Below are positions 4,998 to 49,099 of a DNA stretch of 56,205 nucleotides, one piece after another. Numbering within the stretch: position 1 is the stretch's first letter; each line of letters begins with the position of its first letter. Both the position numbers and the translations under genes were made by a program. The notes beneath the pieces were generated by a model that searched no databases, was not told the DNA's origin, and saw nothing but the letters and a program-made list of their open reading frames with translations. Source of the stretch: Bacteroidaceae bacterium (lineage in GTDB: Bacteria; Bacteroidota; Bacteroidia; Bacteroidales; Bacteroidaceae); NCBI GenBank assembly GCA_017535725.1, contig JAFXTO010000027.1, positions 1-56,205 on the forward strand. The letters are read 5' to 3'.

Positions 4998-5069
4998 AGA
5001 GGCGCCTGAAGATGGAAGGGAGGTGGAGATAGAAAGGCGCCTCAGAGAATGGCGGGATTACCGCTGATA

Positions 5070-8000: not shown

Positions 8001-8309
8001 ATCCCAACCCTTGATTTGTCCGACGAAACCGTTGGTAGCCTCGAACGTGCGGCCGTCACCACGGCTTTTGGGTGTTGACGGATTAACGGTAGCGTAGAGA
8101 GAGCCGTCCTCGGTTACATAGGCGATGGAGCGGTCGCTGAGCGTGGTCTCGCGCACCTTTTCGCCTTTCTTGGAGCCGTCCACGTTCCAAGTCAGGTCCT
8201 CGTCGAAGCCGGCGTTGGCGATGTAGTGGGTCATGTCTTCTTCCCTTTGTGCCGACATCGGCATAGCGGCGAAGACGCCCAGAGTCATGAGAAGTAAAGC
8301 TTTCTTCAT
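5070..8309 (-). CDS. Large multi-module secreted protein with type IX sorting tail
   Basis: 1079 residues from the ATG at 8309, where a clean signal peptide (MKKALLLMTLGVFAAMPMSA) begins; the frame is open 30 codons further upstream but that part is not protein-like. Reading along: a beta-rich galactose-binding-like module (about 25-265), a helical linker with ala/glu-rich repeats (about 270-420), a second beta-sandwich (about 430-620), another helical stretch (about 625-765), a third sandwich beginning NPDFAAIDGWNVEKG (about 775-1010), and a C-terminal tail VDGIYTIDGRRV...GLYIIVRDGKASKMIVK (last 35 residues). The tail has the pattern of short Prevotella type IX secretion sorting domains. No catalytic motif is seen, so surface binding or adhesion is the best guess. 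Confidence 0.75.
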   Translation of the reverse strand: MKKALLLMTLGVFAAMPMSAQREEDMTHYIANAGFDEDLTWNVDGSKKGEKVRETTLSDRSIAYVTEDGSLYATVNPSTPKSRGDGRTFEATNGFVGQIKGWDWVTPRTNDGCEWVYFGTFPYDLEEQAIPIADDGAGYITVPERPEDFDGGTGYLYLRAGWNGTFSYKQEVRLPCAVYRLEYWTININPNTSGSATDLTKITCRRDVFQEEGGEALNSTEWTYHEFEFTPVDKFTMEFGIQVSNNNSNTTPWMVIDGIKLYKIEDADPAEVLRSDLYYYTDEVLANLPDSLMGIDNEFFYGLVEEAESLQREYLYDGDDTALLQESINKLKGLYDSMIEAAETARRVEAQYLKALTLLDVTDYPGKAEFSAYCENIRKLLYETGTVETITAAEAELKEAMNKYYFSQPADMENPANYSFLVPSPWFCQESREPGSNEMSVIADAALTADDIHVDGAWVNGSTAGGTTGGYCKVSRTCYQLWATNFTGYLDAHADLTNLPNGIYSVSMDLIANANALSDQHIYATSSLGQTEGYMTEAGVCYDWISDGNGYQGEYPFAGEDPWETVTTEQTVIVVDGKLTIGARSTHGDPEIEDVSDAQRRGSFWFTNVTLRYHGAATQEQVDAALGIRVKTAQDLVDAMHFAADKKAANDSIAAYNQTKDLNVLNNGIAFAQKSEGKYNEIMEEGKTLPTVAATLENEPESYGVALEVVKYANEATLAWIASSTATYQQVDSILNVMKAYVNTYGQAAIQAAETASEFRSGPRNVVENAIAAQKARLMPGENVMLSIPTVEDMVADLDKLMIKATAQNTFDRNPNNTDYTGWILNPDFAAIDGWNVEKGTGNGPLNAGQYYTGDADHKYFDSYNPTPGELNIYSEQVIEGLPNGTYTARAAARTSGKGAFLFAATGEAKADTIWKEIHLETYTYQISEDKDTTVNATDAYGSIWEEAWKKYEKNEADETETTIATCNANTGRGWRWVTIEGIEVKDHRMTIGQTTNSLLTGQPFEGTWFSVVDWSLTLTAKGNNDGWEGPLTGVNSLKPAQSTAVDGIYTIDGRRVSTTSRGLYIIVRDGKASKMIVK

Positions 8310-8419
8310 AAACAGTTGTTTTTTGTTAGTAAATATAATAGTTATTAATAGTTTTGAAACATCTGTGAATGGTTTTTTGAAACATCTCCAAAACTGCAAG
8401 GCGCAGGCGAAATGCGGCG

Positions 8420-13681: not shown

Positions 13682-15301
13682 ATGATGAAAAGGATTCTTT
13701 TGGGGGTGCTGCTTTTCTGCATCGGTGGCGTCTGTAGCGCAGAGGACATCACCATCCGCTACAAAGGAAACAAGGCAACGGTACAGCAATCGAAGAAGGA
13801 CAGCGTGCAGGTGACGGTGGACGGTGCCTGTGTGAACATCGAGAGCCGGTACGTAGAACATAAGCTCACCCTGCGCCTTACTGGCCGAAGCGACGACGGA
13901 CAACTCATCCTGAAGACGGCAGGCAAGGCCAAAGTGACACTCGATGCGCTGGTGCTGACCAGTCAGGAGGGGGCTCCGCTCCACCTGAAGAACAAGAAGA
14001 AGGTGGAAATCGTGGCCAGCAAGGGAACGGAGAACACCCTCACCATCACCGCCTGCAATGATACTGCCAACCACAAGGCAGCCGTCATCTGGGCGAAAGA
14101 CAAGCTTCTGCTTTCCGGTAAAGGGACCTTGAATATCATCGCCACCGGCGACGGTTGCCGAGGCATCAAGAGCAAGAAGGATATCACCGTCGAGGACGTG
14201 ACGCTCCAGGTGACAACTTCCGGCAACAACCTGGGTGAAAAGCCCTTTGCCTTCGGCGGTTTCCCCGGAGGATCAGAAGGAGGATTCCCAGAAGGTGGAT
14301 TCCCGATGGGTAATGATAGCATCCGAGGTGGCGGCTTCCCTGGAGGGCCTGGCGGCATGCCTCCGTTCAACTTCGATGACATTCCAGAAGAAGTGAAACA
14401 GCAATTCGAGGAAATGCGCAAGCAGTTTGAAGAGCGGATGGCTGCTGACAGCACCGGGCGAGGCGGCTTCCCTGGTTTCTTTGGCGGCATGCCTCCTTTC
14501 GGAGGGATGCGTCCAGAGGGCGGCGATAGTATTGAAGGTGACTTCCCGGACTTCGGCGGAGAAGGCTTCGGAGGGGACTTCGGAGGAGGCTTTGGCGGCA
14601 AGCACAAGTACGTGGCTTCCACCAAGGGCATCGCCTCGAAGGGCAAGATTACCATTAATAGCGGCAATGTCACCGTTCGCACCTCCACGGCAGGAGCCGA
14701 AGGCATAGAGGGCAAGAAGGGCGTCGTCTTCAATGGCGGCAACATCGATGTGCTGAGTCCCGATGATGCGGTCAACGCCAGCGGCTGCATCGAGTTCAAT
14801 GGTGCTCATGTCCTTGCTCGCAGTACGGGTAATGATGCCGTGGATTCCAATCCCGCGAGCGGCTTCTTCTCGCCCTTTGGTAGCAATGAGCAGAGCAATG
14901 AACCAGCTATCGTCATTCGGGGTGGTACCGTTTATGCGTGGAGTCAGGTGGGCTCGCCCGAGGAGGGCCTCGATTGCGACTTCGCGGCACTCATCATCGA
15001 GGGTGGCAACGTCTTCTCGGTCGGCGGAGGAATGGGCGAGATGCCTTCTGTACCTACCAACGAAACCGCCAAGCAGCCCGCTGTCTTGCTCATCGGCATC
15101 CCAATCGCCAAGGACGAACCCATACAACTCCTTGATGAGGGAGGCAAGGTCATCGAGACCATCCACATTCCTTTTGCCCTTCGGCGCAGTGCCAGCCTGG
15201 TGAGCAACGCGGCCTTCAAGCTCGGTGGCACTTATACAGTGAAGACCAAAGGCTACGAAAAAACCTTCTGCCTGAACGAATCGTTCACCCAGGTCAGATA
15301 A
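13682..15301 (+). CDS. Secreted Cthe_2159-type carbohydrate-binding beta-helix protein with G/F/P-rich insert
   Basis: 539 residues with a signal peptide (MMKRILLGVLLFCIGGVCSA). Two blocks of parallel beta-helix-like repeats, about 22-185 (LTLRLTGRSDDGQLILK, GKGTLNIIATGDGCRGIKSK) and about 310-480 (STKGIASKGKITINSGNVTV, EGIEGKKGVVFNGGNIDV, DDAVNASG), match the pattern of the Cthe_2159 family, calcium-dependent binders of acidic polysaccharide. Between them lies a 125-residue linker rich in Gly, Phe and Pro (GGFPGG, GGMPPF) interrupted by a Glu/Lys helix (FEEMRKQFEERM). A CotH partner, often seen with this family, is not present here. ATG at 13685 is an equally good start. Confidence 0.8.
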   Translation: MMKRILLGVLLFCIGGVCSAEDITIRYKGNKATVQQSKKDSVQVTVDGACVNIESRYVEHKLTLRLTGRSDDGQLILKTAGKAKVTLDALVLTSQEGAPLHLKNKKKVEIVASKGTENTLTITACNDTANHKAAVIWAKDKLLLSGKGTLNIIATGDGCRGIKSKKDITVEDVTLQVTTSGNNLGEKPFAFGGFPGGSEGGFPEGGFPMGNDSIRGGGFPGGPGGMPPFNFDDIPEEVKQQFEEMRKQFEERMAADSTGRGGFPGFFGGMPPFGGMRPEGGDSIEGDFPDFGGEGFGGDFGGGFGGKHKYVASTKGIASKGKITINSGNVTVRTSTAGAEGIEGKKGVVFNGGNIDVLSPDDAVNASGCIEFNGAHVLARSTGNDAVDSNPASGFFSPFGSNEQSNEPAIVIRGGTVYAWSQVGSPEEGLDCDFAALIIEGGNVFSVGGGMGEMPSVPTNETAKQPAVLLIGIPIAKDEPIQLLDEGGKVIETIHIPFALRRSASLVSNAAFKLGGTYTVKTKGYEKTFCLNESFTQVR

Positions 15302-15405: not shown

Positions 15406-17625
15406 TTACTTGGCAATATACTTGCTACCGTTTTTGATAACGATGCCCTTGTAGTCCTTGTTAACACGCTGACCAGCGAGGTTGAAGGTAACGGTGGAAG
15501 CATTGTTGCTCTTCATGACGTTGTTGATGCCATTTGGATCAGTACCGAACTCATAAGGATCGGTTCCTGCGCCTTCCTTGACAAAGAAGTTCTTGGTGCC
15601 TTCCTGGTCAATGAGGGACTCGGTCTCATCCTCGAGCTTCCAGACGACGTTGGAGATCTTGTAGACGCAAGCGCCCTTGATTTCAGCCATGTTGAATGCG
15701 ATGGTCTTCATATCCTTGCCAGCGCACTCGTTGGGAACGGTGAAGGTATATTCGAAGTGCTGCGATTCGGTAGTGAAGTTTACATCACCGATGCAACCCC
15801 AGTGGATGTAACCGCCAGGCATAGCATGGCACTGAGTCGTGGTCTTAGCATCGACGGTGCTCTCATAGTCAAACTCGAGGACGGTGACTTCACCAGCATC
15901 CAGCACACGGTTAGCAACGATGAAGAACTGGTTGTCCCAAGCCTGTCCAGGATTTTCGGGCTTGTCAACACCTGCTTCCTCAGCCTCAGCTTCGGTGTAC
16001 TCTCTCTCCTGACCGTTGACGATAACAACAGTCGGGTTGGGATTGATCTCGATGGGTTCCTTGTTGGCTTCACCTTCAATCTTCTCGAATTTCATAATCC
16101 TGTCATCGGGGGCGACATAGATCTTCCAGACACCAGCTGCGGGGAGCTTAATCTTAGCAAGGCTACCTTCTGTGTAGTCCAGCCATTCATCTTCTTCGAC
16201 AGAGCCGGTTGGTTTGAGGGTAGCGCCCTTGAAGGCAGCATCATTACCGCGAACGGTGGAAATCATGACTTCATTGACCCATGACTCCTCGTCGCCCTTG
16301 GTACCAACGGTAGCAACGAATGCTTTCTCGTCAGCGTCCCATACGAATTCGGTAGCGTTGGCGTAGTCATATTCGAGACCTGTTTCAGCATTCTGAGAAG
16401 CAACGAAGTAACCTTCGTCCAGCTTCATAATCTGCCAGGAGAGGTCGTCGAAATAGAAGACATTAGGCTCCTGAGGAGAGTCCACTGTAGACTCCGCGCA
16501 AAGGTTGAATGCGATAGACCAGCCACCACCTTGACTCTCATTGAATGTGATGGTCTTGTCAAACTCCTGCCACTCAGTGGAGAAGTTTATGTCACCAATA
16601 GCCTCCCAATGCAGGTAATCAGACGGATGCTGTTTGTGAATCTGAGTTGCTGTCTTAGCAGCCTTTTCGGCCTTATAGCGGAAGTGAACCTTAATCTGTG
16701 TGCCACTCTTCCAAGCCTGGGGAGACTGAATCCAGAACTGGTTAGACCACTGGATGGAATTGTCATCATCAATCTTATCGATTCGTGTCATATGAACAGC
16801 GAATACATGGTTGCTTTCATTACCTGGCTCTGCTTCAATATCAGCAGGGAAAGGACGAGAGCGTGGACTATCCTCTGAAATAACCGTATTCTGATCATCG
16901 AAGTTGCGACCCATCGTCAGATTCCATGCGCAGATTTCACCTGTACGGTCGCCGCGCCAGTTGGCATTAATGCCATCTTTCTCTTCAAGAGCCCATGCCG
17001 GCCATGCTTGTTCTGCATTACCGTTAACAATCTGTTCGAGCCATTCCACGGGGCGCTCTTCCTTCTTGCTATGGCCTACGGTCACATACTTCCATTCGAT
17101 AGTGGCAGTGGAGGAACCGGGCTGAGCGACGAGGTTACAGGAAGTACCACCGACGCCGGTGTAATCCCATTCAACCTCTTCCCATTCTGTACCAATAGAT
17201 ACAGAAGCGCCTATGCTCTGGCCTTCGTTCCAGCCCCAACCCATGTTGACGTTGATGGTGCAAGCTTCGGAAGCCTTGACCATAGCCTTCACGGTGTAAG
17301 CGCCATCAAGTTCGGTGGGAATACCGTCAGCAATGAAATACTGGTGCCATGCCGGTTCTGCAAGTTCAATCTTGTAGTACTCAACATTACCCTGAGTCTT
17401 GACGATCACGTCGCTGGTCTCTTGAGCGCCCTCCACAGCTACATACTTGTAGTTAGCACCGAAGTCGGTCATCACACCGTCGATCCATTCGGGCACATAA
17501 CCCATTACGTAGAATGGGAAGCCGGTGTTCTGTGAGTAGTCGATTTTGTAGTCTTCTACCCACTCTACTGCATTTGCCCCCAAAGTCATTGCAAAGAGAG
17601 CAACAAGAGTAAGAAATTTCTTCAT
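15406..17625 (-). CDS. Secreted multi-CBM-like protein with sorting tail, last gene of the PUL
   Basis: 739 residues with signal peptide MKKFLTLVALFAMTLGANA. Three beta-sandwich segments can be made out: 20-190 (with AWHQYFIADGIPTELDGAYT, CBM4-like strand pattern), 195-400, and 560-665. The last two share a recurring unit: SNQFWIQ...HFRYKAEKAAKTATQ...YLHW.AIGDINFSTE.Q.F near 294-355 and DNQFFIV...EFDYESTVDAKTTTQ...YIHWGCIGDVNFTTE.Q.F near 564-624. The C-terminus (VTFNLAGQRVNKDYKGIVI, then KNGSKYIAK) is a Prevotella-style sorting tail. No catalytic motif. It lies 69 bases after the GH10-like gene, in the same direction, so it is probably the last gene of the same transcript. The likely role is glycan binding at the cell surface. 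Confidence 0.8.
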   Translation of the reverse strand: MKKFLTLVALFAMTLGANAVEWVEDYKIDYSQNTGFPFYVMGYVPEWIDGVMTDFGANYKYVAVEGAQETSDVIVKTQGNVEYYKIELAEPAWHQYFIADGIPTELDGAYTVKAMVKASEACTINVNMGWGWNEGQSIGASVSIGTEWEEVEWDYTGVGGTSCNLVAQPGSSTATIEWKYVTVGHSKKEERPVEWLEQIVNGNAEQAWPAWALEEKDGINANWRGDRTGEICAWNLTMGRNFDDQNTVISEDSPRSRPFPADIEAEPGNESNHVFAVHMTRIDKIDDDNSIQWSNQFWIQSPQAWKSGTQIKVHFRYKAEKAAKTATQIHKQHPSDYLHWEAIGDINFSTEWQEFDKTITFNESQGGGWSIAFNLCAESTVDSPQEPNVFYFDDLSWQIMKLDEGYFVASQNAETGLEYDYANATEFVWDADEKAFVATVGTKGDEESWVNEVMISTVRGNDAAFKGATLKPTGSVEEDEWLDYTEGSLAKIKLPAAGVWKIYVAPDDRIMKFEKIEGEANKEPIEINPNPTVVIVNGQEREYTEAEAEEAGVDKPENPGQAWDNQFFIVANRVLDAGEVTVLEFDYESTVDAKTTTQCHAMPGGYIHWGCIGDVNFTTESQHFEYTFTVPNECAGKDMKTIAFNMAEIKGACVYKISNVVWKLEDETESLIDQEGTKNFFVKEGAGTDPYEFGTDPNGINNVMKSNNASTVTFNLAGQRVNKDYKGIVIKNGSKYIAK

Positions 17626-17694: not shown

Positions 17695-19356
17695 TTATTT
17701 TCCGCTGAGCGCATCGCAGAATGCCTTGTAGGTGGCGGTTCGCACCCAATCTTTGCTCTTGGAATCTACCGACCAGAGTCCGACAGGATCGTTCGTATCA
17801 GCCAAGTTGCCCTTGCAGATACCAGCCTGCTTCTCGTTAGGAATCTTGGTCATGTAGGTTTTGATGACAAGTGCATAGTAGTCTGCCAGCTTCTGGCGCT
17901 GGGCTGTTGTGATATCTTTTGCTATCACATTAGCGCCTGTTGCATCCTGGTACTTGATGTCGAAGTTGGAGAGACGAATCAGTTTGCCCGTCTTGGCCAG
18001 GTTGTCGAGGAGGGTGTTCAGCGTGGCCACGTTGGCGGTCTGCGTCGCTGCATCCTCGCTATAGACGAGACTCAGCTTCGCGTTGATGCCGTCGAGCTTG
18101 GCACCCTTGCCGTCCCAGATGTTCATCCAGTACTTGAGGCTCTCGAATTTCTTCGCGTCATCGAGACCGCTCTCGCTGATAAAGAACTTCATCTCGGAGG
18201 AATCGCCCTGATACCTCTGGAAAGCAGCACGTGCAGCCTTTGCTACAGCCGGAGCATAGTTCTCGCTACCGAGGATATCCTGCCAGAAAATCTTTTCCGT
18301 AGAGTGCTTGAGGTCGTACATGCCGTTCTCGAGCGTGGAATTCGCATCAATAGCCTCGTCAATGAGGTCGAAGGACTTGATACGACCGGCGTTGATCTTC
18401 ATCAGACCATCGCACCAGGTGTTGAGTGCATAATTAATCGTATCACTCTTTTCTTGTGCCGTCTGCGGGCGGTGGTTGTCTGGATAGTAGCCGACCTGCA
18501 CCTTCTGGATGTACATAACCGCCTTACGGGTGTTCTCGATTTTCAGGTAGCCTTCGGTCTCACCTTTGGCACTTTGTCCTTCCACGACAAACTTCGTCCA
18601 TTTGCCGGGCTTCAGGATATACTTGCCGTCTGCGCCACTTCCTGCAATACTGTTGCCAGAGAAAACAACCGTGAAAGAAGCTTCCTTGTCGGCCTTAGCC
18701 CAGAAAGTGATGGTGTAGTTGGCGAGCGGATCCACGTCGAAACCTTCCACGATGCGCACCTCTGCTTGTGCATTCTTGGATGTTCCGATTTGGAGGGCGT
18801 TCTGTCCATCGTATTTGACGATGGAAGCGTTACCCTTTTCCACCTTGCCATCGAATGTGGTCATGGTGGTGAAGTCTACAGACTTCCCTTCGACATAGTC
18901 CACAGAAACCTCAATAGGAGCGGTGAGCGTATTCAGCCAGTCGTCAGCCTGGTTGGCATTGGCCACAATCGGGCTACCGAATACATTGCCTCCGATTTCC
19001 TCTACGTGGTCGAGCAGGTCCTTCATGTCGAGGAAGTTCATCACACCCTTGGCGTTGACGATGGCACCTGACATCAGGGTCGTCCCGAAGGCGAGGTCGT
19101 CGAAGTTGGTGACGGCGGCGGCATGTGCCAGTTCCTGCTTGTTGAATTCGGCCACCTTAAGTTGTGCGCCGAGAGACATATTGGGATACTTGGCTCTGTC
19201 GATGTAAGACTTCACGGTGGCGTAGTCCTTGTAGGGCTCCACGAAGTTAGGATCTGGTTCGGCCGTGAAATCATCTGTCACATTATAGTCGGCACAGGAA
19301 ACGGCAAGTGCGGCCGCTGCCAACAGATAGAATGCGTTTTTAAACATCTTATTCAT
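17695..19356 (-). CDS. GH10-like lipoprotein with an inserted CBM-like module and lost catalytic residues
   Basis: 553 residues with lipobox Cys21 (LAAAALAVSC). The layout follows Bacteroidota GH10 xylanase lipoproteins: N-terminal VKSYIDRAKYPNMSLGAQL, a first half of the barrel, an inserted CBM-like sandwich (about 146-292), then the second half. Key sites have changed. Where GH10 has NFDEVTAGNAMK it reads NFDDLAFGTTLMS (84-96); where GH10 has GHTLVWH it reads GSPIVAN (127-133). The acid/base segment WDVVNEA is FDLIDEA (329-335), keeping Glu334 but losing the Asn. The nucleophile segment TELD/SELD is SNFD (463-466), with Asn464 in place of Glu. It should not hydrolyse xylan by the normal route. 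It occupies the xyn10C position of a Xus-type operon, so a surface glycan-binding role is inferred. Confidence 0.8.
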   Translation of the reverse strand: MNKMFKNAFYLLAAAALAVSCADYNVTDDFTAEPDPNFVEPYKDYATVKSYIDRAKYPNMSLGAQLKVAEFNKQELAHAAAVTNFDDLAFGTTLMSGAIVNAKGVMNFLDMKDLLDHVEEIGGNVFGSPIVANANQADDWLNTLTAPIEVSVDYVEGKSVDFTTMTTFDGKVEKGNASIVKYDGQNALQIGTSKNAQAEVRIVEGFDVDPLANYTITFWAKADKEASFTVVFSGNSIAGSGADGKYILKPGKWTKFVVEGQSAKGETEGYLKIENTRKAVMYIQKVQVGYYPDNHRPQTAQEKSDTINYALNTWCDGLMKINAGRIKSFDLIDEAIDANSTLENGMYDLKHSTEKIFWQDILGSENYAPAVAKAARAAFQRYQGDSSEMKFFISESGLDDAKKFESLKYWMNIWDGKGAKLDGINAKLSLVYSEDAATQTANVATLNTLLDNLAKTGKLIRLSNFDIKYQDATGANVIAKDITTAQRQKLADYYALVIKTYMTKIPNEKQAGICKGNLADTNDPVGLWSVDSKSKDWVRTATYKAFCDALSGK

Positions 19357-19371: not shown

Positions 19372-20565
19372 TTAGGGTTTAACGTATTTGGGTGAGAAGA
19401 GCTCTCGCTTATTGGCCTCACGAGTCTGAACGACGAGGGTGTCGGTGGTTGAGATATCAATGTCATTTGCAAGGATTATGTCATTTCCTTTATCATCCTT
19501 TCCAATGACACGCCCTTGCTTGAACTTCACATTGTATGCCAGACGGAGTATGTCGCGTTGAACAAGTGCTCCGTTGTTGCTACCCCACTGGTAGTCCTTG
19601 TATTCCGGCTTCTCGGTTCCCTTGGTGATGAATTCACCAGAACCAGAGGCAGGCACTTCTGTGTCATCACTGGAAATCGTACATTTGTTGCCATCGAAAG
19701 TGAGGATGAGGTTGCAACTTTGAGATGCTCTGGCTTTTCCAGCTGCATCCTTACCTATATTAAAGGAAACGGGGAAGATGGCCTGAGTCATGTTCTTGGT
19801 GGTGATGCCGCAGACTTCGTCATTCTGGTTCACGGGATTTTCCTTGTAGTGTTCAAGGTCTGTGTTGACCAAGGAGGTATCCTTGCGGACAACCGTGGTG
19901 ATAACACCAGCTTCGGTCAGCACATCAACACCACGGCGGATGTATTTACCCTGCCAGGGGTTCATATACTTCACGCAGTAGAGTACATAGTCCTTTGCCA
20001 GGACATCCCAATCCTCCGTATTCGTGCGGGAAGGAGAGAGGCCTTCGCGCGGGGAACCCGTCAGGATACGGTCGATACCCCTCACGTTAGTCATCAGGAG
20101 AGGAATGACGTATGTGTTCTCGATAGCCTTGGGGTCGTTGAAGAACGCGTCTGTGAACTGCACTTCCACATAACCACGAGAATTCCCATTGTATGGAATG
20201 ACGTTGGACGAAAGACTATAGTATGCCGTGGGCATGGGAAGGACAGGATAGGCAGCATTGCCACCTTCATCGGTAAAAAAGAGGTTGTTGCAGAGAGTTT
20301 CATCGACAACAATATCCACCGCTGCATCGCGCCCGCCGTAGGCTCCACCCATGGTAGACCAGATCTGACACTTGTGCTCTTGGTCAAGTGCGTTGTCGTA
20401 GGTATCGTTTCCAAGGACGAGGGTACGGACGGGGAACTGATAGGCGAAGTAAGCGGTCGTACCTCCTTCATAGTCCGGGAATTTATTCTCTTTGTTGCAG
20501 GCTACAACTGTGAGAGAGAGTACTCCCAGGACTGCGCCATATATATGATTCTTAAGTTTCACCAT
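19372..20565 (-). CDS. Surface glycan-binding lipoprotein (DUF1735 / DUF5627-type), XusE position
   Basis: 397 residues with a lipoprotein signal ending VVAC (Cys23). The N-terminal half (ENKFPDYEGGTTAYFAYQFP, then IWSTMGGAYGGRDAAVDIVV) has the DUF1735/BT_3987-like pattern of SusE-position proteins: FPDYxxGTTAYFAYQ and the GGRDAAVDIVVD strand. The C-terminal half (WQGKYIRRGVDVLTEAG ... YNVKFKQGRVIGKDDKGND) fits DUF5627. It follows SusD after 59 bases and precedes the GH10-like gene by 15 bases. The role is to hold the target polysaccharide at the outer surface for the SusCD importers. Glycan specificity cannot be read from sequence. Confidence 0.82.
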   Translation of the reverse strand: MVKLKNHIYGAVLGVLSLTVVACNKENKFPDYEGGTTAYFAYQFPVRTLVLGNDTYDNALDQEHKCQIWSTMGGAYGGRDAAVDIVVDETLCNNLFFTDEGGNAAYPVLPMPTAYYSLSSNVIPYNGNSRGYVEVQFTDAFFNDPKAIENTYVIPLLMTNVRGIDRILTGSPREGLSPSRTNTEDWDVLAKDYVLYCVKYMNPWQGKYIRRGVDVLTEAGVITTVVRKDTSLVNTDLEHYKENPVNQNDEVCGITTKNMTQAIFPVSFNIGKDAAGKARASQSCNLILTFDGNKCTISSDDTEVPASGSGEFITKGTEKPEYKDYQWGSNNGALVQRDILRLAYNVKFKQGRVIGKDDKGNDIILANDIDISTTDTLVVQTREANKRELFSPKYVKP

Positions 20566-20624: not shown

Positions 20625-22454
20625 CTACTTCCAACCCTTGTTTTGCTTGAGGTTGCTCCACTTGAGTATTTCGCTCTTGGGAATGGGTCCGTAGAACTGA
20701 TAGGAACTGTCGTATTTCCGATCCTCCACCTTAATGATTTTATAGGAGAGGGTACCAGTTGCTTCGTCGCGGTCAATCTGCACCCCCTTCACTCCTTCGT
20801 CAAGCGGCAGCATCCAACGACGGAGGTCCCAGAAGCGCTTGTTCTCGAAGCAGAGTTCCAGACGACGCTCGTTGCGGATGAGGTTGGTCATATCGGTCTG
20901 GTTGTTTGCACATTCTTCGAGATAGGCGTCGCCTTCGGGAAGAGGCATTCCAATGGCGTCCGTTCCGAGTCCGGCACGATTACGGATAGCCTTAATCACA
21001 TCGTAGGCCGTGAAACCAACGCCTGTAGGATCGCTCTTGGGACCCCATGCATCGTTGGCGGCTTCGGCGTAGGCCAGGAAGATTTCCGTGTAGCGAATGC
21101 GGGGGTACAGGTGCTGACGCTCCATGAGTGAGCTCTGCAGGGGATTCGCGTCCTCACGTAGCAGTTTCCTCAGGTAGTAGCCTGTGCGGGTGGAAGTGCT
21201 TTGATTGTTAATGTTGTCAGCCGTCTCACTCTTATCGCCATTGACAGCAGGATAGGTACCGGTTATAATCAAGGATTTCCTGAATGTCGTACCATTGTAG
21301 AGAACGATGTTGGCCAGACGTGGGTCGCGGCCTGTATAGGGATCGTTCTTGTCGTAACCTGACTTGGCCACGTTGCTGATTGGATAACCGTTGCGCATGG
21401 GGAAGGCGTCAACAAGGTTCTGCGAGGGATTGACCTGACCGTCGCCATACAAGGTGGGAGGGAAGTTGTCGCCTTCTTGGCTTGCATTATTATCATAGTC
21501 CTTGCGCCAGAGAATCTCATCGAAATCTGACAGGCTTTGCAGCTTGGTGGAATTCATGTACCAGTTGATGTTTCCATCCTTATCGAATCCGTTTAATCCA
21601 CCTATCCGATTGAGTACATTGCCACAAAGAGTTGCAGCCTCTGCGGAAGTCACGTTGCTTTGGTCACGGAAAGCAGGACTTGCGGCGAGGAGTGCGACCT
21701 GTGCCTTGATAGCCTCGGCAATCTTACCAGAAATAAGGTTCTTGGCTTTGGAACCAAATACGAGGTTATAGCCAGAGTAATTGGCACCCAACGACAGGTA
21801 TTTGGCGGGAATGTCTTCGGCACTACTGATGTCGGTATAATCTAAAGGAAGGAGTGCCATTGCGCTATCGCAGTCGGCAAAGCATCGCTTCACACAGTCG
21901 GCAAACGTGGCGCGAGGCTGGTTGAAGTCGGAGCTACCGTCTTCAGCATTCGTCAGAAGGGGCACGCCATAGAGAACACCATCGTCTGCATAACCTCCAT
22001 GGGCCTGGAGCAGATAGTAATAGAAGAGTGCACGAAGGCCGAAGGCTTCACCCTTCAGACGGTCGATGAACATCTGCTGCTTGGAAGCTGCGCTGGGAGC
22101 CCATTTGGTCTTTTCTACGATGGCAAGGAAAAGATTGACATACTGGATGCCATCCTTGCAGTTATCCCATTGGGACACAGGGTTGTTGTCCGAAGCCCAT
22201 GCGCCCGTTGCCATATTCAGATAATTACTGTTTTTCAGGTTGGTAACAGCATCATCTGTAGCAATGTCCGTCTGGGTTGTCGTCAAATCAGGAATCCGAT
22301 CATACGCATAGATCAGCAGGCCATGTGCATACTTGGACTCCTCGGTCATGTCTTCTGCCTGTCGGTTGTTCTCATCTGCCGGTACGAACATATCATCGCA
22401 GGAGCAAAAAGCGAGAACCCCGATTAAGTACATTATAATATTTCTTGTCTTCAT
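20625..22454 (-). CDS. SusD/RagB-like starch-binding-type lipoprotein 2 (XusD position)
   Basis: 609 residues from the ATG at 22454; the frame's nominal TTG start nine bases upstream is not needed. Lipoprotein signal MKTRNIIMYLIGVLAFCSC with Cys19 followed by DDMF, the classic SusD start. TPR-like helices are visible (GLRALFYYYLLQAHGGYADD; RYTEIFLAYAEAANDAWG), and the C-terminus carries RNERRLELCFENKRFWDLRR, the SusD hallmark. It forms the lid of the SusC barrel gene immediately upstream (22491-25448) and captures oligosaccharides at the cell surface. Length is slightly above the 520-560 average. Confidence 0.95.
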   Translation of the reverse strand: MKTRNIIMYLIGVLAFCSCDDMFVPADENNRQAEDMTEESKYAHGLLIYAYDRIPDLTTTQTDIATDDAVTNLKNSNYLNMATGAWASDNNPVSQWDNCKDGIQYVNLFLAIVEKTKWAPSAASKQQMFIDRLKGEAFGLRALFYYYLLQAHGGYADDGVLYGVPLLTNAEDGSSDFNQPRATFADCVKRCFADCDSAMALLPLDYTDISSAEDIPAKYLSLGANYSGYNLVFGSKAKNLISGKIAEAIKAQVALLAASPAFRDQSNVTSAEAATLCGNVLNRIGGLNGFDKDGNINWYMNSTKLQSLSDFDEILWRKDYDNNASQEGDNFPPTLYGDGQVNPSQNLVDAFPMRNGYPISNVAKSGYDKNDPYTGRDPRLANIVLYNGTTFRKSLIITGTYPAVNGDKSETADNINNQSTSTRTGYYLRKLLREDANPLQSSLMERQHLYPRIRYTEIFLAYAEAANDAWGPKSDPTGVGFTAYDVIKAIRNRAGLGTDAIGMPLPEGDAYLEECANNQTDMTNLIRNERRLELCFENKRFWDLRRWMLPLDEGVKGVQIDRDEATGTLSYKIIKVEDRKYDSSYQFYGPIPKSEILKWSNLKQNKGWK

Positions 22455-22490
22455 ACTATTCAATTTTCAATAATCAATAGTCAATTAGAA

Positions 22491-25448
22491 TTAGAACGTT
22501 ACCTTGACACCGAGGTTATAGAAACGAGTCTGAGGTGCATAGCCTACAGTGGTCTCCATCAGCTTGCGCTCCTTGGAGATGGTGAGGAGGTCGTTGGCGT
22601 TCAGATAGATGGAGAGGTCCTTGACAACCTTACCCATGAGGTTCTTCGGGAAGTCGTAGGTAAGCTGTATCTTGCGAAGGTTGAAACGGTTGGTGCTGTA
22701 GATCCAGAAGGTGGATGCGGCAGCATTGTGATTCGAACCCTGGGCGCTCAGACGGGGATGAGTAGCCACATCTGCGGTCTCGGGGGTCCAGCGGCCCCGT
22801 GCATTGACGGAGTACTTGGCGTCGCCACTCATATAATAGTAACCGTTGTTCTTCATACCGTAGGCTCCGAACTGACCGTTGCCGACGATGAAGAGTGTAA
22901 AGTTATTGTACTTGAGGGTGAGGTTCACGCCGAGTGTGAAGGGAGAACCGTAGCGACCGTCCTTGCCCAAATCAACCTGGTCCTTGGAATCGATAATTCC
23001 ATCGCCAGTCACATCTTCATATTTCAAGTCACCAGGCTGGATGGTACCGCCAATCTTGGAGGTGGGGAGTCCATCCTTCAGGGTGTACTTAATATTGCCG
23101 TCGGAAGTCTTGGTCTCGTTGAAGTCATCGTACGTGTAGAAGCCTAAGCACTGGTAGCCGCGGATGGCGTCAATGGCATGACCCTCTACCTTCTGGTTCT
23201 CATATTCTACGATTTCGTCGTACTTCTTGTTGTTGGTTGCGAGATAGGTTCCGACCACACCAAGGGCTGCATAGACCTTGCCAAACTGCTTCTGGGCAGT
23301 GATGCTGAAGTCAAGACCCTGGCGTGTCTGAATGTTGTTGTTGATAGCCGGCTTGAAAGTACTACCTTGGAGGCCACTCTGCAGGTGAGAGGGGAAGGTG
23401 GTCGGGTTCTGGACAATGAAGCCGTCCATATCTGTGTGGAAGTAAGTGAGGTCTGCGGAAAGCAACTTATTAAAGATTGAACCACGCAGACTGACGGAGA
23501 ATTCCTTGCGATGGATGAAGTCGAGGGCGGGATTGCTACCCATGGTGGAATAGGTGCGGTCTGCGTTAGAACCTTCATTCCAGGAGAAGCCACTACCGAC
23601 GGTTTCCCACAGGGCATCGTAGAGATAGAAGTATTTTTCACCCATATAGACGTCGATGTCCTCACTCAGATTACTGTAGGAGGCGCTGAGCATCAAGTCA
23701 TCGACCCAGCTTCCTTTTAGGAAATTCTCCCTGGCCATATTCCAGCCAATGGTGAAGGAGGGAGAGATGGCATTGCGATGGCCTTCGGCAAGGCGAGCGG
23801 AATGCACACCGGCCAAAGTTACATCGGCATAGTAGCGACCCATGAAGTCATAACCTGCCTGCAGGCCTAAGTTGGCATTTGCATAACGGTGGTACTGACC
23901 GCTGGAGGTGGTTGTGAACATATTAGCGAGGAACATACCCGTTACGTGGTGCTTGCCACCGAACGTATGGTCATAGTCAAAATGTCCATTCCAACTGATG
24001 GTCTGGCGATAGGCGGTATTTGACATTGACATGTGACCACTCACAATCTCGTCGTTCTGCTGGGTGAGACCTACAATGACATCCTCTGAGTTGTAGTTAC
24101 TCCAAGTGGGGATGAACACAGCGTACTTGTTGTCGTACGAAAGGCCATAGTTGGCGGCATAGTCGATGGCGAACTGGGTCTTGAATGACAAGCCCTTGAC
24201 GAACTTGTTCATGTCGTAGATGATGCCGGCATCAAACTGGAACTGACGGCTGACGTCCCTTGTCTGGCCACCGAAATAGCAATCGGCGATGGCATTGGTC
24301 TGGGTGGTCTTGGTGCCGCCGGGGAAATAGACTCCGTCAAGCAGGTTGAGCGACTTGCCAAGGATGGCAAGAGCTTTGCTGGCATTGGGGTCAACCATAT
24401 TAATATGAATCAGCGGAGCTGCGTTTTCCGGGAAGTTAGGACGACCATATTTTCCAGTGTTGTTGCGATTTTCATCCTGACCAGCTGCCTCGCGCCAGAA
24501 GTCGCCTTTGTTCTTGTTGGCATTGTAGAAGGTAGCACTGGCGTTGGCATATCCCTTGATGAACTCGTTGATGACGAGATCCACATTACCACGAACACTG
24601 AATCGGTCGGTGTAGTTGTACTTAGCCTCTCCGAAGTTGAGGAGGTCGGCAACACGATAGTAGTTGACATTCGTGTAGAAGTGAGCACGACTACCACCAC
24701 CCTGAATCTCTGCAGTAGCTTCTGTACGGTTGTATGCCTTGCGGACATATTCGTCAGAATAGTAGTTTACGTTGGGATAACGATAGGGATTGATACCTGA
24801 AGCGTGATTATAGATATCCTGTTGGCTATACTTAGGAACGTAGGGGTTACCTAAGCCACGGGCATCGTTAGCAACGGCTTCGTTGTAGAGGGTCATGTAC
24901 TCTGCCGAACCCAGATACTCTGGGAATTCCTTGGCGACGTGCCAGCCAGTATTGGCGTTGGCTACAATCTGGAGGCCATCCACCTTACCGCGCTTGGTGG
25001 TAATCAGGATGGCGCCCTTTGCAGCCTTGGAGCCATAGAGGATCACTGCCTGTGCGCCCTTGAGGAAGGTGACCTGCTCAATTTCAGAGGGAAGAACATT
25101 GTTGGACGGACGCTTCACACCGTCGATAATCACGAGCGGCATGTTGCTGTTGTCGTTGTTGTCCAAGCGGTCGTTGTCCATTCCCCAAAGGTTGTTGCCA
25201 TTCCAACCACCGACAAGCGCATACAGATCTTCGAGACTGCTCATTGTATAGTCTTTCTTCTGCAGATCTTCCATGTCAACGTATGAAATGCCTCCGAGCA
25301 GTTGGTCGGCATCCTTGTCGCGGAAAGCAACGTGGACTTTCTTGACTGCCAAGGTTGAATCCGCTTCGTCTGCGGCCTGGGCATTGACCGTCAGGGGCGA
25401 AACAGCAAACAAGGCAATGAGAAATATGTTTGTCTTTATTCTTTTCAT
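22491..25448 (-). CDS. SusC-like TonB-dependent outer-membrane receptor 2 (XusC position)
   Basis: 985 residues from the ATG at 25448, where the signal peptide MKRIKTNIFLIALFAVSPLT starts. Unlike the first SusC of this locus it has no N-terminal carboxypeptidase-D-like domain; the mature protein goes almost directly into the plug (DMEDLQKKDYTMSSLEDLYALVGG), then PLVIIDGVKRP, VTFLKGAQAVILYGSKAAKG and ILITTKRG, followed by the 22-strand barrel and a terminal aromatic strand ending VKVTF. This short form is typical of the second SusC in tandem Xus-type loci. It imports oligosaccharides bound by its SusD using TonB energy. Confidence 0.95.
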   Translation of the reverse strand: MKRIKTNIFLIALFAVSPLTVNAQAADEADSTLAVKKVHVAFRDKDADQLLGGISYVDMEDLQKKDYTMSSLEDLYALVGGWNGNNLWGMDNDRLDNNDNSNMPLVIIDGVKRPSNNVLPSEIEQVTFLKGAQAVILYGSKAAKGAILITTKRGKVDGLQIVANANTGWHVAKEFPEYLGSAEYMTLYNEAVANDARGLGNPYVPKYSQQDIYNHASGINPYRYPNVNYYSDEYVRKAYNRTEATAEIQGGGSRAHFYTNVNYYRVADLLNFGEAKYNYTDRFSVRGNVDLVINEFIKGYANASATFYNANKNKGDFWREAAGQDENRNNTGKYGRPNFPENAAPLIHINMVDPNASKALAILGKSLNLLDGVYFPGGTKTTQTNAIADCYFGGQTRDVSRQFQFDAGIIYDMNKFVKGLSFKTQFAIDYAANYGLSYDNKYAVFIPTWSNYNSEDVIVGLTQQNDEIVSGHMSMSNTAYRQTISWNGHFDYDHTFGGKHHVTGMFLANMFTTTSSGQYHRYANANLGLQAGYDFMGRYYADVTLAGVHSARLAEGHRNAISPSFTIGWNMARENFLKGSWVDDLMLSASYSNLSEDIDVYMGEKYFYLYDALWETVGSGFSWNEGSNADRTYSTMGSNPALDFIHRKEFSVSLRGSIFNKLLSADLTYFHTDMDGFIVQNPTTFPSHLQSGLQGSTFKPAINNNIQTRQGLDFSITAQKQFGKVYAALGVVGTYLATNNKKYDEIVEYENQKVEGHAIDAIRGYQCLGFYTYDDFNETKTSDGNIKYTLKDGLPTSKIGGTIQPGDLKYEDVTGDGIIDSKDQVDLGKDGRYGSPFTLGVNLTLKYNNFTLFIVGNGQFGAYGMKNNGYYYMSGDAKYSVNARGRWTPETADVATHPRLSAQGSNHNAAASTFWIYSTNRFNLRKIQLTYDFPKNLMGKVVKDLSIYLNANDLLTISKERKLMETTVGYAPQTRFYNLGVKVTF

Positions 25449-25498
25449 AAAAGTGTCAATTTTCAATTTTCAGTATTCAATTTTCAATTGCCTTTGTA

Positions 25499-27532
25499 TT
25501 ACCATCCGGGATTCTGGGGGAATCCTTCGTAGAGATAAATGTCCTTGTCAGGAAGCGGGAACCAATAATGCTTTGATTCCAAACGGCGGACAATGAGCTC
25601 CTTCTTCTGGAAGTGTGCTACTTTCGCGTCTTTGGGATCGTGAGTCTTATACCAGTCATCCGTTTCCAAACGCTCGAACTCATGGGAGTATTTCACCGTG
25701 TAGGGAGGCTCGGTCAGGAGAAGCCAACGCTGCAGGTCGCACCAGCGGAAGCCTTCGAAGGCAAGTTCCACGGCGCGTTCGCGACGTATCTCATCCATGA
25801 AGTGTTCCTTGGTGTCCATGAGGTTAGCCTGCACGTGTTCCATCGGGAAATCGTCGGTGTTGACGCGGTCGCGGAGCGCGTTGATGGCTTCCACGGCAGA
25901 GAGCGTTGTGCAGTATTCTGGTCTTTCCTTCAGGGCTGCAACATTTGCTGCAACAACAGCCTGTGCCTCGGCATACATCAAATAGACATCAGCCAGACGC
26001 ATGTAGGGGAGGTAGGATTGGAGAGCCCAGTCCCAATCATAGTATTTGTCACCTTGGTTACACTGGTGGGGTATCAGCTTCTGGATGAAATAACCCGTGC
26101 TGCTTCCGTCGTCCACACCGCGCATGTCACCACCAGTGGCTAAGGTGCAATAATCATACTTCTTCTGGTCTGTGGTCAGAGCATCTGTGCTGAGCACATA
26201 GTGGAAACCATCAAAGATGATATCATGGTAGAAACGCGGGTCACGATCCTTGTAGGGGTGCTCCGGATCCCAGCCCGAGGCGGGGTTGAGTACATATTCA
26301 CCGTTACGAACCAGATAGATGGGCTGTCCGTTGGCCATTCCATACTGGTCAATCAGGTTAGCTGTGGGGTGGTGGATGATTTTGTCATGATCCACAATAC
26401 CTGCGACCTTAGGGCCGAAAATCTTTGCGCAGTTCCAGTTGGCGCTATTCTGACCAGGATAGGCACCACGCATGATGGCTTCCGGTTCGCCCGGCATCTT
26501 CCAGCTCTGCTTGACGGTATAGAAGATATCCGAGTAGCAGGTCTCGGCGTTCTCATCCTTCGTGTGGTCGTAGAGGTTGGAATACTTGAATTCAGCAAGC
26601 TTGTAGCTGACCGTTCCTTTGTTGACCATATCAAGGGCCTTGCCTAAGGTCTGGGCAGCCTTCTGGCAGTATGCGACGTCATAATCATAGGTCTTGCCGT
26701 TGGAACTGGCACCTAACAACTGGGCCACTCCGCCGTTCTTGGTCTTTTCCATTTCCTTCATGAGCGGCGAGCCAGCCCAGAGATAGCACTTGCCCAGGTA
26801 GCAGAGAGCGGTGAACTTATTGACGCGCAAATCGTTGTTCCCGGAAGTCTGCATACCAGCCAGTGTTTCGTCCCAACCCGTAGGATCGGTAGGAAGCAGG
26901 TTATATGCTTTCTCGAAGTCTTCTGCACAGCGGTCTGCACATTCCTGGAAGGAAAGACGGGGTAGTTCAGGAATCTGATCTGCCTCAAATGCTTTGTCTA
27001 TATAGGGAAGACCGCCGAAATAGCACATCAGTTCGAAATGCCACCAAGCACGGAAGAAATACATCTGTCCGAGCAGCAGGTCGCGCTCTTCGTCAGATCC
27101 TACGAGAGACTTGATGTTCTCAATACCCATATTGCACTTGCGGATGCAGTACCAGGAGTTGTCCCAAAGGGATTGTCTTCTGTTATTAAAGGTATTACCC
27201 TTCAGCCAGCACTGGTTGTTTTTATACCAGTTACGATAGTTGCCGAGGTCCACCTGATGATCCATGTGCGCAAAGCCTTCCGTGTTGTGAACGGCATCGT
27301 CGCCAAAGTTCCATGCGGTACAATAGTTGACTTTCTCTTTGTCCGGAATCAGATTATAGATTTCCTCAAGATACCCCTGGAAGTTGCGATAGTTCTTGAA
27401 AGCCTCATCCTCGGCCACAATGGACTCCGGATCCTTATCAAGCCAGTCGGTGCAAGACGTGAAGCAAACACCGCAGGTCAGCAGGAGAAGCAAACCGTAT
27501 AAAAGGGATTTTATATTTTTAAAATCTTTCAT
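25499..27532 (-). CDS. SusD/RagB-like lipoprotein 1 (XusB position)
   Basis: 677 residues. Signal peptide and lipobox end TSC (Cys27) followed by TDWLDKDPESIVAEDEAFKN, a textbook SusD N-terminus. It has LLGQMYFFRAWWHFELMCYFGG (about 154-175), MRLADVYLMYAEAQAVVAAN and the C-terminal block IRRERAVELAFEGFRWCDLQRW. It is larger than most SusD proteins (about 550), with extra loops around 230-300 and 350-480 that could shape the glycan site. It follows SusC 1 after 11 bases. Anchored in the outer membrane, facing outward. Confidence 0.96.
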   Translation of the reverse strand: MKDFKNIKSLLYGLLLLLTCGVCFTSCTDWLDKDPESIVAEDEAFKNYRNFQGYLEEIYNLIPDKEKVNYCTAWNFGDDAVHNTEGFAHMDHQVDLGNYRNWYKNNQCWLKGNTFNNRRQSLWDNSWYCIRKCNMGIENIKSLVGSDEERDLLLGQMYFFRAWWHFELMCYFGGLPYIDKAFEADQIPELPRLSFQECADRCAEDFEKAYNLLPTDPTGWDETLAGMQTSGNNDLRVNKFTALCYLGKCYLWAGSPLMKEMEKTKNGGVAQLLGASSNGKTYDYDVAYCQKAAQTLGKALDMVNKGTVSYKLAEFKYSNLYDHTKDENAETCYSDIFYTVKQSWKMPGEPEAIMRGAYPGQNSANWNCAKIFGPKVAGIVDHDKIIHHPTANLIDQYGMANGQPIYLVRNGEYVLNPASGWDPEHPYKDRDPRFYHDIIFDGFHYVLSTDALTTDQKKYDYCTLATGGDMRGVDDGSSTGYFIQKLIPHQCNQGDKYYDWDWALQSYLPYMRLADVYLMYAEAQAVVAANVAALKERPEYCTTLSAVEAINALRDRVNTDDFPMEHVQANLMDTKEHFMDEIRRERAVELAFEGFRWCDLQRWLLLTEPPYTVKYSHEFERLETDDWYKTHDPKDAKVAHFQKKELIVRRLESKHYWFPLPDKDIYLYEGFPQNPGW

Positions 27533-27543
27533 AATATATACTA

Positions 27544-30500
27544 TTAAAGGTAAAGCTTAAATCCGAAGTTGAAACGTCTGACCGTGGGATAGGCACCACC
27601 AGCACCGCTCCATCCATAGTTACTCTCGCGGTCGTCAGGCATCTTTGTAATCAGGAAGAGGTTGTTGGCATTCAGGTACAACTTCAGGCTGGTGAAACCA
27701 ATTCTCCTAATCCATCCTTTCGTAAATGTGTAAGCGACTTCTACGTTCTTGAGTCGGAAGTAGGAACCATCGTAGAGGAACTGAGTTCCGTTGTTCCAGT
27801 CCTCTTCATTCTCAGGAGCGCCGGTGGTGAAACGGTTGGGTACGACTTCACCGTTGCCATCGACCGGATTCCACAGAGTACCAGTATTGTATACGGTGAG
27901 GAGGGTGCTGGGGAAAGAACGGAGTGTGACATCACGTGTGACGCCGAACACGCCATATAACTGAGCAAAAATACTCCAGCCTTTCCACTCCCAGCCGATT
28001 GTACCATTGTAGGTATGTTCTGGGATTTCAGTGTAGCCGTAGGGAGCCTTGTCATTTGTTTCGTCAACGATACCGTCGCCATTGAAGTCCACAAGGTAAT
28101 GGTCACCGATGAGTACCTGACCGTCGTTCTTCTCACGAGCTGGCGTGCTGTAGAGCTGGTCGTAGGAACCTATGAATCCATTGTCGATGAACGAAACGTA
28201 CTGGCCCTGAGAATAGCCCTGGGCCTTGCGGTAACTGGGAATCAGAGCGGGGTCATCCTTCAATTTAATGATGTTGTGCGCATACGTATAGTTGGCATTA
28301 GCCCAGAAACGCATCTTATTCCTCAACACCTTGTTGAAGCGAAGCTCCAACTCGAAACCGGAATTCTTGATCTTACCCTTGTTGATGTCAGGTGTCTTTG
28401 CGGCACTATACTGGGCATCGTTGAGTGAACCGAAATATGAGGGCACGGTACGGTCGGCACCCGATATGAAGATATCGTTACGGTCGTCACGGAACCAGTC
28501 AAAACTACCGGCAAACATGCCACCGAGGAATGCGTAGTCGAAACCGATATTCTTCTTCACCACGGTAGCCCAGCGGAGGTCGGGGCTGGCAACACCAGCC
28601 TCCTTATAGCCAGTGAACGGGCTGGCAGATCCGTCCAGATTCATTGCAATGGGATCAACGACAGACCACTCTGTCAGGTAAGCCCAGCGATTACCAGCAT
28701 TGTCATCACCAATCTGACCGATAGAACCACGAATCTTGAACATATCGATAATGCCTTTGTCGCGGAACCATTTCATGAATTTCTCCTCAGAGAGCATCCA
28801 ACCGGCAGCTCCTGAACAGAAGAATGCGAAGCGATTTTCAGGAGAGAACTTTTGGGAACCGTTGTAAGCGCCATTGAATTCGGCGAAATACCTGCTCTTC
28901 AGGTCGTAGGTGGTACGGAAGACCCAGTCCTCACGACGGAATTCAAGGTCGGCATTACCTGCATTGGTGCGACGCTTCCAGTTACCCATTGCAGACACGT
29001 TGTGAATGCCGAACTGACGTCCCCAATAGAGTTGAATGGACATTTCCGTGGCACGGCTTGTGGAACTTACGCTACCGGCTTGTTGTTGCCAATCACGACT
29101 TTCATAGAAATCGAAACCCGTGTTAGGATAAATTTCCGTTCCAGGAACAAACACACCGTTCTCAGGGAGGATATATGCAGTCTTCGTTGTATGCTGGTCA
29201 GCAATACCGCGGCTACCCTCATCAAACCGGTTGTCCCAGGATATCGTTCCGCGTGCAACCAGTCCCTTTGTCACGAAATCAAGATTCTGCTCCAGGGCGA
29301 AGTCGGTATAGACGCGTGTGATGGATTTCGTCTCAAAACCAGAAGTTGCCACATTCATGGAGGAGTTTGCAACGTTGGAGGCAAACTGCTTGGAGAAACC
29401 CCATGAACCATCGGAGTACTGAACCGGGAAGATGTTTGGCGGCATACGATAGGCACCAGCCCAGTTCTGCTGCTGGAAGAACTCACCATTATTACCATAA
29501 TAATAACGCGGTGACTTCTGCTGAGCATTGGAACCTGCCAGGTTGACCCTGAACTGGGTAGTCTTCGTAATTTGGAAGTCCAGGTTGGAACGTACATTCA
29601 GACGGTTGTATGCATAACCACCGGTATAGCCCTGATGGTTATCCCAGATCTTGGTCATATCACCTTCGTTCTGGAAGTCGAATGCCACGAAATACTTCAC
29701 AAAATTCGTACCACCGGAAATATTGAGATTCGCATTATAAGATAAGGCAAATTGCTTGAACATCTCATTCTGCCAATCGACGTTGGGATAGCGTTCTGCC
29801 TGACTATAGTCACCGAGGTACACACCAGCTGCATCATAATTGGGCTTTACTACAGTGCTCTGATTGCGGAAATTGTTGATGAAGGTCTGTGGACGATAGT
29901 ACTGCCAAGAACCTGTTCCGCCTAAAGCAAGCTCATGCTCAATAGCCTGGTTACGGTACATATAGCCGTCGTATGAATCGTACTTGTTCGGTAGCTTTGA
30001 CACGGCCTTCAATGTGGCGTTGAAGCCCACATCAATTCTTGCCTTGCCTTCCACGCCACGTTTGGTGGTGATCAGGATAACGCCGTTAGCACCTTCCACA
30101 CCATAAACGGCTGTAGCCGACGCGTCCTTCAGTACGGAGACGGTAGCCACGGAGGTGATGTCGACGGACTTGATATCACGCTTGACACCATCGACGAGGA
30201 TCAGAGGCTGTGCGTCCTGATTCCAGGCTGCTGCACCACGAATGTAAATACGCGGGTCCTCTTCACCAGGCTGACCAGAGGAAGCGATGGTGGCCACACC
30301 AGGCAGGTTACCCGTGAGGGCGGCACCCACACTACCGATACCGGCAGCTCGTTCCAATACTTCACCCGTGGTCTGCGTAATAGCTCCCACCACAGAAACT
30401 TTCTTCTGCTGGCCGAAACCGACAACCACGACTTCATCCAGCTGGGTGTTGTCTGCGAGCGTAATCTTGAGGTTACGCTGCTTGCCGACCTTGACTTCCT

Positions 30501-46100: not shown

Positions 46101-46142
46101 AGTCTTCTGGTGTTTCTATGTTATCTGGTTAATCCAGTCTTT

Positions 46143-47708: not shown

Positions 47709-47864
47709 AATAGCAAGACCCACCCCTCACCTTCCCTGTGTGGGAGGAAGTAGCTTGGACTCCAAGGATGAAAGGTTTAAGGGTCATATAATATAGGTTA
47801 TTGTTTTATGATTCAATGTTTATAGGTGGGTACTCCCTCGCAGGAAGGGTGGGAGAGGAACCTT

Positions 47865-48986: not shown

Positions 48987-48990
48987 ATAT

Positions 48991-49092
48991 TGATTTGAAG
49001 ATTTAACGATTTGACGATTTTAGGATTTCTCGATTATCCGATTAAACGGTTATCCGAATCCTCGATTAAACGTTTTTTCGATTAAACGATTT
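48991..49092. repeat. AT-rich tandem motif (CGATTAAACG type) between gldK and gldL
   Basis: About eight loose copies of a 10-12-base unit (CGATTTAACGATTTGACGAT; CGATTAAACG; CGATTATCCG). It lies in the leader of gldL on the minus strand. It is not a clear hairpin. Confidence 0.6.
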
Positions 49093-49099
49093 GGTAAAC

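Follow-up and report, generated by a model that had tools for sequence, protein, structure and literature searches.

A GH10-derived lipoprotein-like protein without the catalytic nucleophile at the Xyn10C position of a Xus-type operon, a probable glycan-binding partner of two SusC/SusD transporters

In this study, we analysed 56,205 nucleotides of a Bacteroidaceae bacterium (assembly GCA_017535725.1, contig JAFXTO010000027.1; hereafter the window) and, within them, the gene at 17695..19356 on the minus strand, which encodes a lipoprotein-like protein derived from glycoside hydrolase family 10 (GH10) and devoid of the catalytic nucleophile (hereafter the study protein). Our findings favour a model where a Xyn10C-type GH10 probably gave rise to a surface lipoprotein that does not cut and that acts as a glycan-binding partner of two SusC/SusD transporters, with xylan or xylo-oligosaccharides as the most likely ligand. 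The gene belongs to a run of seven genes in the same direction, separated by 11-69 bases, that encode SusC, SusD, SusC, SusD, a BT_3987-like_N/DUF5627 protein, the study protein and a protein of 739 amino acids (aa). The susC-susD-susC-susD-xusE-xyn10C order of Xus loci (PMC7848910), whose Xyn10C slot the sequence-only reading had recognised here, recurs in the 78 loci that a genome scan added to our own copy, giving a set of 79 sequences; it is unbroken in 78/78, with the reservation that the count covers recognised genes alone and would miss an unrelated gene lying among them. These loci come nearly all from metagenome-assembled genomes of Prevotella, Prevotellaceae, Bacteroidaceae or Bacteroidales, many of them from ruminants, and from Prevotella sp. 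P5-92. The last Xus position, where an active GH10 is expected, thus appears to be held by a protein whose catalytic nucleophile is absent.

The derivation from GH10 is plain. The open reading frame (ORF) runs from ATG to stop over 553 aa with no internal stop, matches the Pfam GH10 model (47.0 bits, cut-off 22.1; E 2.7e-12) and yields a predicted structure with a GH10-type (beta/alpha)8 barrel, clear in the fold comparison, where VIA-align was used to re-examine the ranking given by Foldseek itself. A single-sequence phmmer search reaches GH10 xylanases at E 0.016, the A1 profile hit none of the PDB chains at E 0.001, and a profile-profile alignment with 23 slot-type GH10s that keep both catalytic Glu gives E 9.3e-80. 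The phmmer matches of P0001 to designed PPR proteins were set aside as repeat matches, together with an NCBIfam hscB match below cut-off. Judged by eye, the N-terminus is lipoprotein-like (...LAVSC21ADYN), and Cys21 is present in 77 of the 79 sequences, the other two being cut.

The catalytic site has been rebuilt. The nucleophile segment, (V/I)SELD in intact relatives, reads L462-S-N464-F-D466 (codons of S463-N464-F465 at 17962..17970, minus strand, located from the ORF start); N464 is aligned opposite the nucleophile Glu of the 23 GH10s and stands, in the predicted structure, directly after strand 459-463 (beta-7). The acid/base segment, WDVVNE in intact relatives, reads F329-D-L-I-D333-E334 (codons of D333-E334 at 18355..18360, minus strand, located in the same way), with E334 directly after strand 328-333 (beta-4). 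Of the two Glu that mark a GH10 xylanase, the study protein therefore keeps the one after beta-4, and in place of the one after beta-7 all 79 sequences have Asn464. An alignment error masking a nucleophile Glu is ruled out by MAFFT, hhalign and the strand positions in the model. Elsewhere in the old cleft, NAMK has become T92-T-L-M95, GHTLAWH/GHTLCWH has become G127-S-P-I-V-A-N133, the Gln and His of GTQMH have become K427 and S429, and the Trp of QWC has become G516. The motif residues mapped in NAMK, GHTLVWH, QMH and QWC we take to be those assigned to GH10 subsites -1/-2. All mapped -1/-2 residues are replaced in the study protein: the Asn and Lys of NAMK, the His and Trp of GHTLVWH, the Asn before the acid/base, the Gln and His of QMH and the Trp of QWC; the first of them is Asn in 7 of the 79 orthologues. 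Before that Asn most GH10s have Glu, and G91 was not counted as a loss because Gly already stands there in the Xyn10C-like group. Apart from those in GTQMH and QWC, which it did not list, the sequence-only reading had called these changes by eye, and they hold up: profile alignment and predicted structure agree on Asn464 and place no Glu at the nucleophile position, Glu334 is kept with the preceding Asn lost, and GSPIVAN and TTLM read as it claimed. On its sequence, the study protein is very probably not a GH10 enzyme.

The replacements are not due to chance, because N464, N133, M95, E395 and K515 are each found in 79/79 sequences; so are S128, P129 and D466. A long open frame is kept in all 79 (512-578 aa, some cut by contig ends), and the ratio of nonsynonymous to synonymous substitution rates (dN/dS) of 0.067-0.207 (Nei-Gojobori, 16 closest pairs) denotes purifying selection. 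To a decaying gene or an assembly artefact we give practically no weight: the lost catalytic residues, taken by themselves, would agree with decay, but the open frames, the low dN/dS, the constant operon position and the fixed N464 refute this explanation. The study protein is a maintained protein, as had been claimed from its intact frame. Full-length relatives occur in 11 of 399 genomes of the family, its own included.

Why E334 persisted is suggested by its relation to position 427. Position 334 is Glu in 74 of the 79 sequences, Lys in 4 and Gly in 1; position 427 is Lys in 74, Glu in 4 and Gln in 1; and the two are strictly coupled (E/K 74, K/E 4, G/Q 1). In a tree built without these two columns the pattern amounts to two events, with both residues changed each time, and among 28 pairs of 8 mixed-sign, nearly always charged positions only 334-427 and 544-548 behave so. 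The latter pair, four residues apart in the last helix, is a second perfect charge swap (68 +/- and 11 -/+ of 79). In a model of a P. copri GH10, the corresponding Glu161 and Gln235, matched by motif, are both put in subsite +1 (PMC8631079). Because 334 is coupled to 427, we read E334 as probably kept for one half of a salt bridge with K427 across the old cleft and not as a catalyst, although two events are few. This bears on the idea of a new enzyme with changed chemistry, in which E395 or another acid would replace the nucleophile: the invariance of E395 and D466 speaks for it, but the acid/base Glu gives way to Lys in four sequences and to Gly in one, always with a change at 427, and the study protein has lost the His, Asn, Trp and Gln of the -1 subsite, so that we hold it very improbable.

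A tested precedent for loss of catalysis in this slot is BACOVA_03431, from the polysaccharide utilization locus (PUL) PUL-XylL of B. ovatus, described as an inactive, GH10-like surface lipoprotein with the nucleophile lost and the -2 subsite disrupted, which binds birch and corn xylan (PMC4491172). Its authors stated in 2015 that no other natural inactive GH10 was known to them (PMC4491172); it has been placed in a 'core xylan utilization cluster' (PMC4855328), and for a Phocaeicola GH10 the same was speculated as for BACOVA_03431 (PMC11610566). The study protein is like it in slot (tandem SusC/SusD, 3n91-type protein, GH10-like lipoprotein), in the lost nucleophile and in the disrupted -2 subsite. 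With the Xyn10C and Xyn10C-like xylanases of Xus loci, the latter reported behind susC-susD-unk in 44/45 PUL cases, it shares the slot, the barrel, an insertion after beta-3 and the Gly in the -2 motif; Xyn10C, however, has both catalytic Glu and two inserted CBM4 modules, as against no nucleophile and one diverged insert (PMC7848910). In other work the GH10 is described as seemingly invariable in structure and position (PMC7815789). In expected role, and in position among outer-membrane lipoproteins, the study protein is comparable to surface glycan-binding proteins (SGBPs) of the SusE/SusF type, whereas SGBPs such as BACOVA_04391 are beta-sandwich chains (PMC4491172) and the study protein is built on a former glycoside hydrolase. 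The kind is thus known from one tested protein; new are the 334/427 coupling, the repeated loss and the separate neighbouring CBM protein described below, and none of the passages retrieved from open-licence PMC papers mentions the Prevotella clade, a repeated loss in the slot or the coupling.

The same literature lends something to another explanation, a structural or docking subunit of an outer-membrane uptake complex that binds no sugar, its pocket closed by E334-K427, its barrel used for contacts between proteins and the sugar bound by the 739-aa and SusD proteins. The coupling and the replaced -1/-2 residues would fit it. So would the report that BACOVA_03430 of B. ovatus did not bind xylan (PMC4491172), the BT_3987-like_N/DUF5627 protein in the XusE position (19372..20565, minus strand) being its relative (PDB 3n91, which is BACOVA_03430; E 5.5e-59; PMC4491172), and so would the accessory lipoproteins described in complex with the levan and dextran SusC/SusD systems (PMC7618045). 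We nevertheless regard a docking role as unlikely, for the same-slot BACOVA_03431 does bind xylan, and many invariant aromatic residues are still present in the barrel, including candidates for the lining of a sugar site. The UNK protein upstream of Xyn10C in a termite-gut locus, at the BACOVA_03430-type position, is itself reported to bind arabinoxylan (PMC7848910).

Sequences related to carbohydrate-binding modules (CBMs) lie both in the study protein and in its neighbour. After strand beta-3 the study protein carries a CBM-like insert (about residues 152-291; 18484..18903, minus strand), recognised from Pfam, entropy, sequence comparison and predicted structure, in which CBM_4_9 stays below threshold (18.6 bits, cut-off 25.9; residues 173-269). 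That a CBM-like insertion is retained, as the sequence-only reading had it, is right in kind and place; the insert is, however, the most variable part of the protein (mean entropy 1.40 bits versus 0.79 in the barrel) and matches the CBM inserts of other slot-type GH10s weakly. The 739-aa protein (15406..17625, minus strand) gave nothing above cut-off in the Pfam scan, and by sequence comparison it contains three copies of the CBM that Xyn10C-type xylanases carry as an insert. Its residues 67-187 match 4mgs/4qpw (E 2.3e-9), PDB entries named just as GH10, which we take to be xylan-binding CBMs of Bacteroides GH10s; residues 270-399 and 553-672 match a CBM insert of the GH10 in locus L058 (Prevotella sp. 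P5-92) at 37 and 31% identity; and the best matches of the three copies among slot-type GH10s reach 44, 40 and 45%. Its C-terminal tail looks, by eye, like the tails of secreted Prevotella proteins. Relatives of this protein (32-77% identity) lie next downstream of the GH10-like gene in 78/78 loci. We propose that the xylanase of the Xus core operon, a GH10 of Xyn10C type, would have turned into a surface lipoprotein that no longer cuts xylan and that would hold xylan chains or xylo-oligosaccharides near the two SusC/SusD transporters. An intact Xyn10C would cut and, by its inserted CBMs, grip in one protein; here gripping may be shared between the remodelled barrel and the free-standing triple-CBM neighbour, and cutting may be left to enzymes that are encoded at other loci of the genome or that other microbes release.

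The sequence-only reading had also proposed a surface binding protein, perhaps for a different glycan. The binding protein remains the best reading, with BACOVA_03431 as its precedent, and the different glycan has fared less well: xylan is favoured because of the operon partners, the three adjoining CBM copies and the enzyme relatives at 29 of 57 loci. The latter come from a search of the flanks with 12 query enzymes, covering the 57 loci whose downstream sequence extends over 5 kb or more, in which the remaining 28 gave no relative; over all 57, the two-domain esterase query matched in 13, GH30 in 10 and an intact GH10 with CBM inserts in 2, and GH115 relatives also lie beside some orthologues. 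In 6 of the 10 GH30 cases the frame starts less than 250 bases from the relative of the 739-aa protein (L003, L007, L008, L036, L049, L071). One other GH10, in which both catalytic motifs can be recognised by eye, is present in the genome of the window itself (76% complete), together with 21 stretches that match GH43 (several of them within one frame), a GH115 frame and a single DUF5627 gene, that of this operon. A glycan other than xylan, such as an acidic or decorated polymer held by K427, K515, E395, N133 and N464, would explain why the pocket gained two lysines and why several of its replacements are fixed and not drifting, as in a new site. We consider it quite unlikely, given the Xus core operon with its three Xyn10C-type CBM copies, the GH30, GH115 and intact GH10 relatives beside some orthologues, the xylan bound by BACOVA_03431, and the uronic acids that decorated xylans carry themselves.

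Several points weigh against a xylan-binding partner of the transporters. Surface display, lack of catalysis, glycan binding, xylan as ligand and cooperation with SusC/SusD are inferred for the study protein from its sequence and setting. With every mapped -1/-2 residue replaced, the GH10 mode of xylose binding is lost to the old cleft, and xylan, if bound, must therefore be bound in another way. The CBM-like insert has diverged, and a Xyn10C is a candidate origin of the 739-aa protein. Conservation of the former pocket exceeds that of the remaining barrel on a list of 15 positions (mean entropy 0.376 versus 0.791 bits, p 0.010), an excess that depends on the list (p 0.075 with 12 positions, 0.065 with 10). 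Neither 28 of the 57 flanks nor the window itself matches any of the 12 enzyme queries, several of the enzyme matches near orthologues (esterases, GH2) are not specific to xylan, and the reported non-binding of BACOVA_03430 counts here as well.

The same slot has been altered in other Bacteroidales. Among the loci fetched from searches of 393 genomes of the order, 399 genomes of the family and 158 genomes of a single genus (sets that overlap in part), a GH10-like gene stands behind a DUF5627 gene in 31 rows. These amount to 24 distinct places, all outside the Prevotella clade; at 21 of them both Glu positions can be read. Twelve of the 21 are intact, three keep both Glu with glycone motifs altered or unaligned, and six are without one or both Glu, proportions that are biased because the table consists of fetched loci and the searches were seeded with the study protein or the G677 protein. 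In a PUL-XylL-like locus (L194), GH115, GH2, GH97, GH95, GH43-CBM6 and GH3 surround a degenerate GH10 that has Asp in the nucleophile position, lacks the acid/base Glu and shares 24% identity with the study protein; there a 678-aa protein with weak beta-helix matches and then GH115 follow, in contrast to the triple-CBM protein behind the Prevotella gene. The degenerate copy of G677 resembles that of the window in that no enzymes were recognised in the scanned parts of its operon; it is flanked by a BACON-domain protein and then efflux-pump genes on one side and by histidine-degradation-type genes on the other. Further degenerate copies (L146, L197, L169, L170, L155) are like the study protein in slot and in the loss of one or both catalytic Glu, but differ in their substitutions (a nucleophile replaced by Gly, Ala or Asp, or a change confined to the acid/base) and belong to other lineages of the tree. 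In L196 (9036-10808, minus strand) both catalytic Glu are kept and most -1/-2 residues are lost (DAMS, GNSLCSY), and relatives alongside lost the nucleophile Glu; from these motifs it looks like an intermediate stage. Behind the degenerate slot GH10 of L146 lies a 725-aa BACON-domain protein (7283-9457, minus strand) where Prevotella has the triple-CBM protein, and likewise in L196 and L197. The slot GH10 of L148 (5934-8716, plus strand) is divided between two frames that overlap (434 and 544 aa), by a frameshift or an assembly error.

A tree of 70 rows, 14 of them degenerate, included only 8 of the 79 Prevotella-clade sequences; contained copies, 8 truncated or near-duplicate rows and the second GH10 of the own genome (L079, too distant) were left out. 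The degenerate rows fall in several places, with six changes, four of them forced by well-supported branches, and a single loss common to all 14 is rejected (approximately unbiased (AU) test, p 0.000215). As one origin is rejected, catalytic loss in the slot happened more than once, a number that the trees leave unsure owing to long branches. Holding the study protein with L194, as stand-in for BACOVA_03431, is tolerated (AU p 0.434) although the two are apart in the free tree, as is holding it with the G677 group (p 0.384); exact places are unsure, since four of the degenerate rows sit on very long branches and the bootstrap had not converged. Since the Prevotella clade and several other lineages carry the barrel without the full catalytic pair, counts of GH10 genes would overstate surface xylanases. 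The slot also provides a natural gradation, from intact proteins by way of the partly degenerate L196 (both Glu kept, subsites lost) to fully rebuilt ones, in which the change of a carbohydrate enzyme into a binding protein could be studied. More speculatively, the last Xus slot could be a point of repeated conversion, at which the xylanase of several Bacteroidales lineages independently turned into a non-catalytic barrel. Rumen Prevotella would have divided the two tasks of the ancestor between the barrel, as a fixed binding lipoprotein, and a separate triple-CBM protein, and operons without an adjoining enzyme would capture xylan fragments cut elsewhere, by their own scattered enzymes or by neighbours; we put this forward tentatively, as an extension that may well fail.

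The remaining operon genes, all on the minus strand and assigned by domain search, are the second SusD-like protein (20625..22463), the second SusC-like TonB-dependent transporter (22491..25466), the first SusD-like protein (25499..27532) and the first SusC-like TonB-dependent transporter (27544..30786). Unlike the first, the second SusC-like protein has no CarboxypepD_reg match, and its Plug match is weak (5.5e-06 versus 8.3e-13). Besides the study gene, no other glycoside hydrolase family was found among the 29 Pfam-scanned ORFs of the 62 in the window. At 5049..8399, a minus-strand ORF of 1109 aa overlaps two plus-strand ORFs (425 and 563 aa), none of the three with a Pfam match at E 0.01. 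On the opposite strand, immediately behind the operon, lies a gene for a Cthe_2159 carbohydrate-binding domain protein (13682..15301, plus strand), and at 45012..51705 on the minus strand are genes for type IX secretion and gliding (GldN, GldM, GldL, PorP/SprF), with an FGE-sulfatase-domain gene among them.
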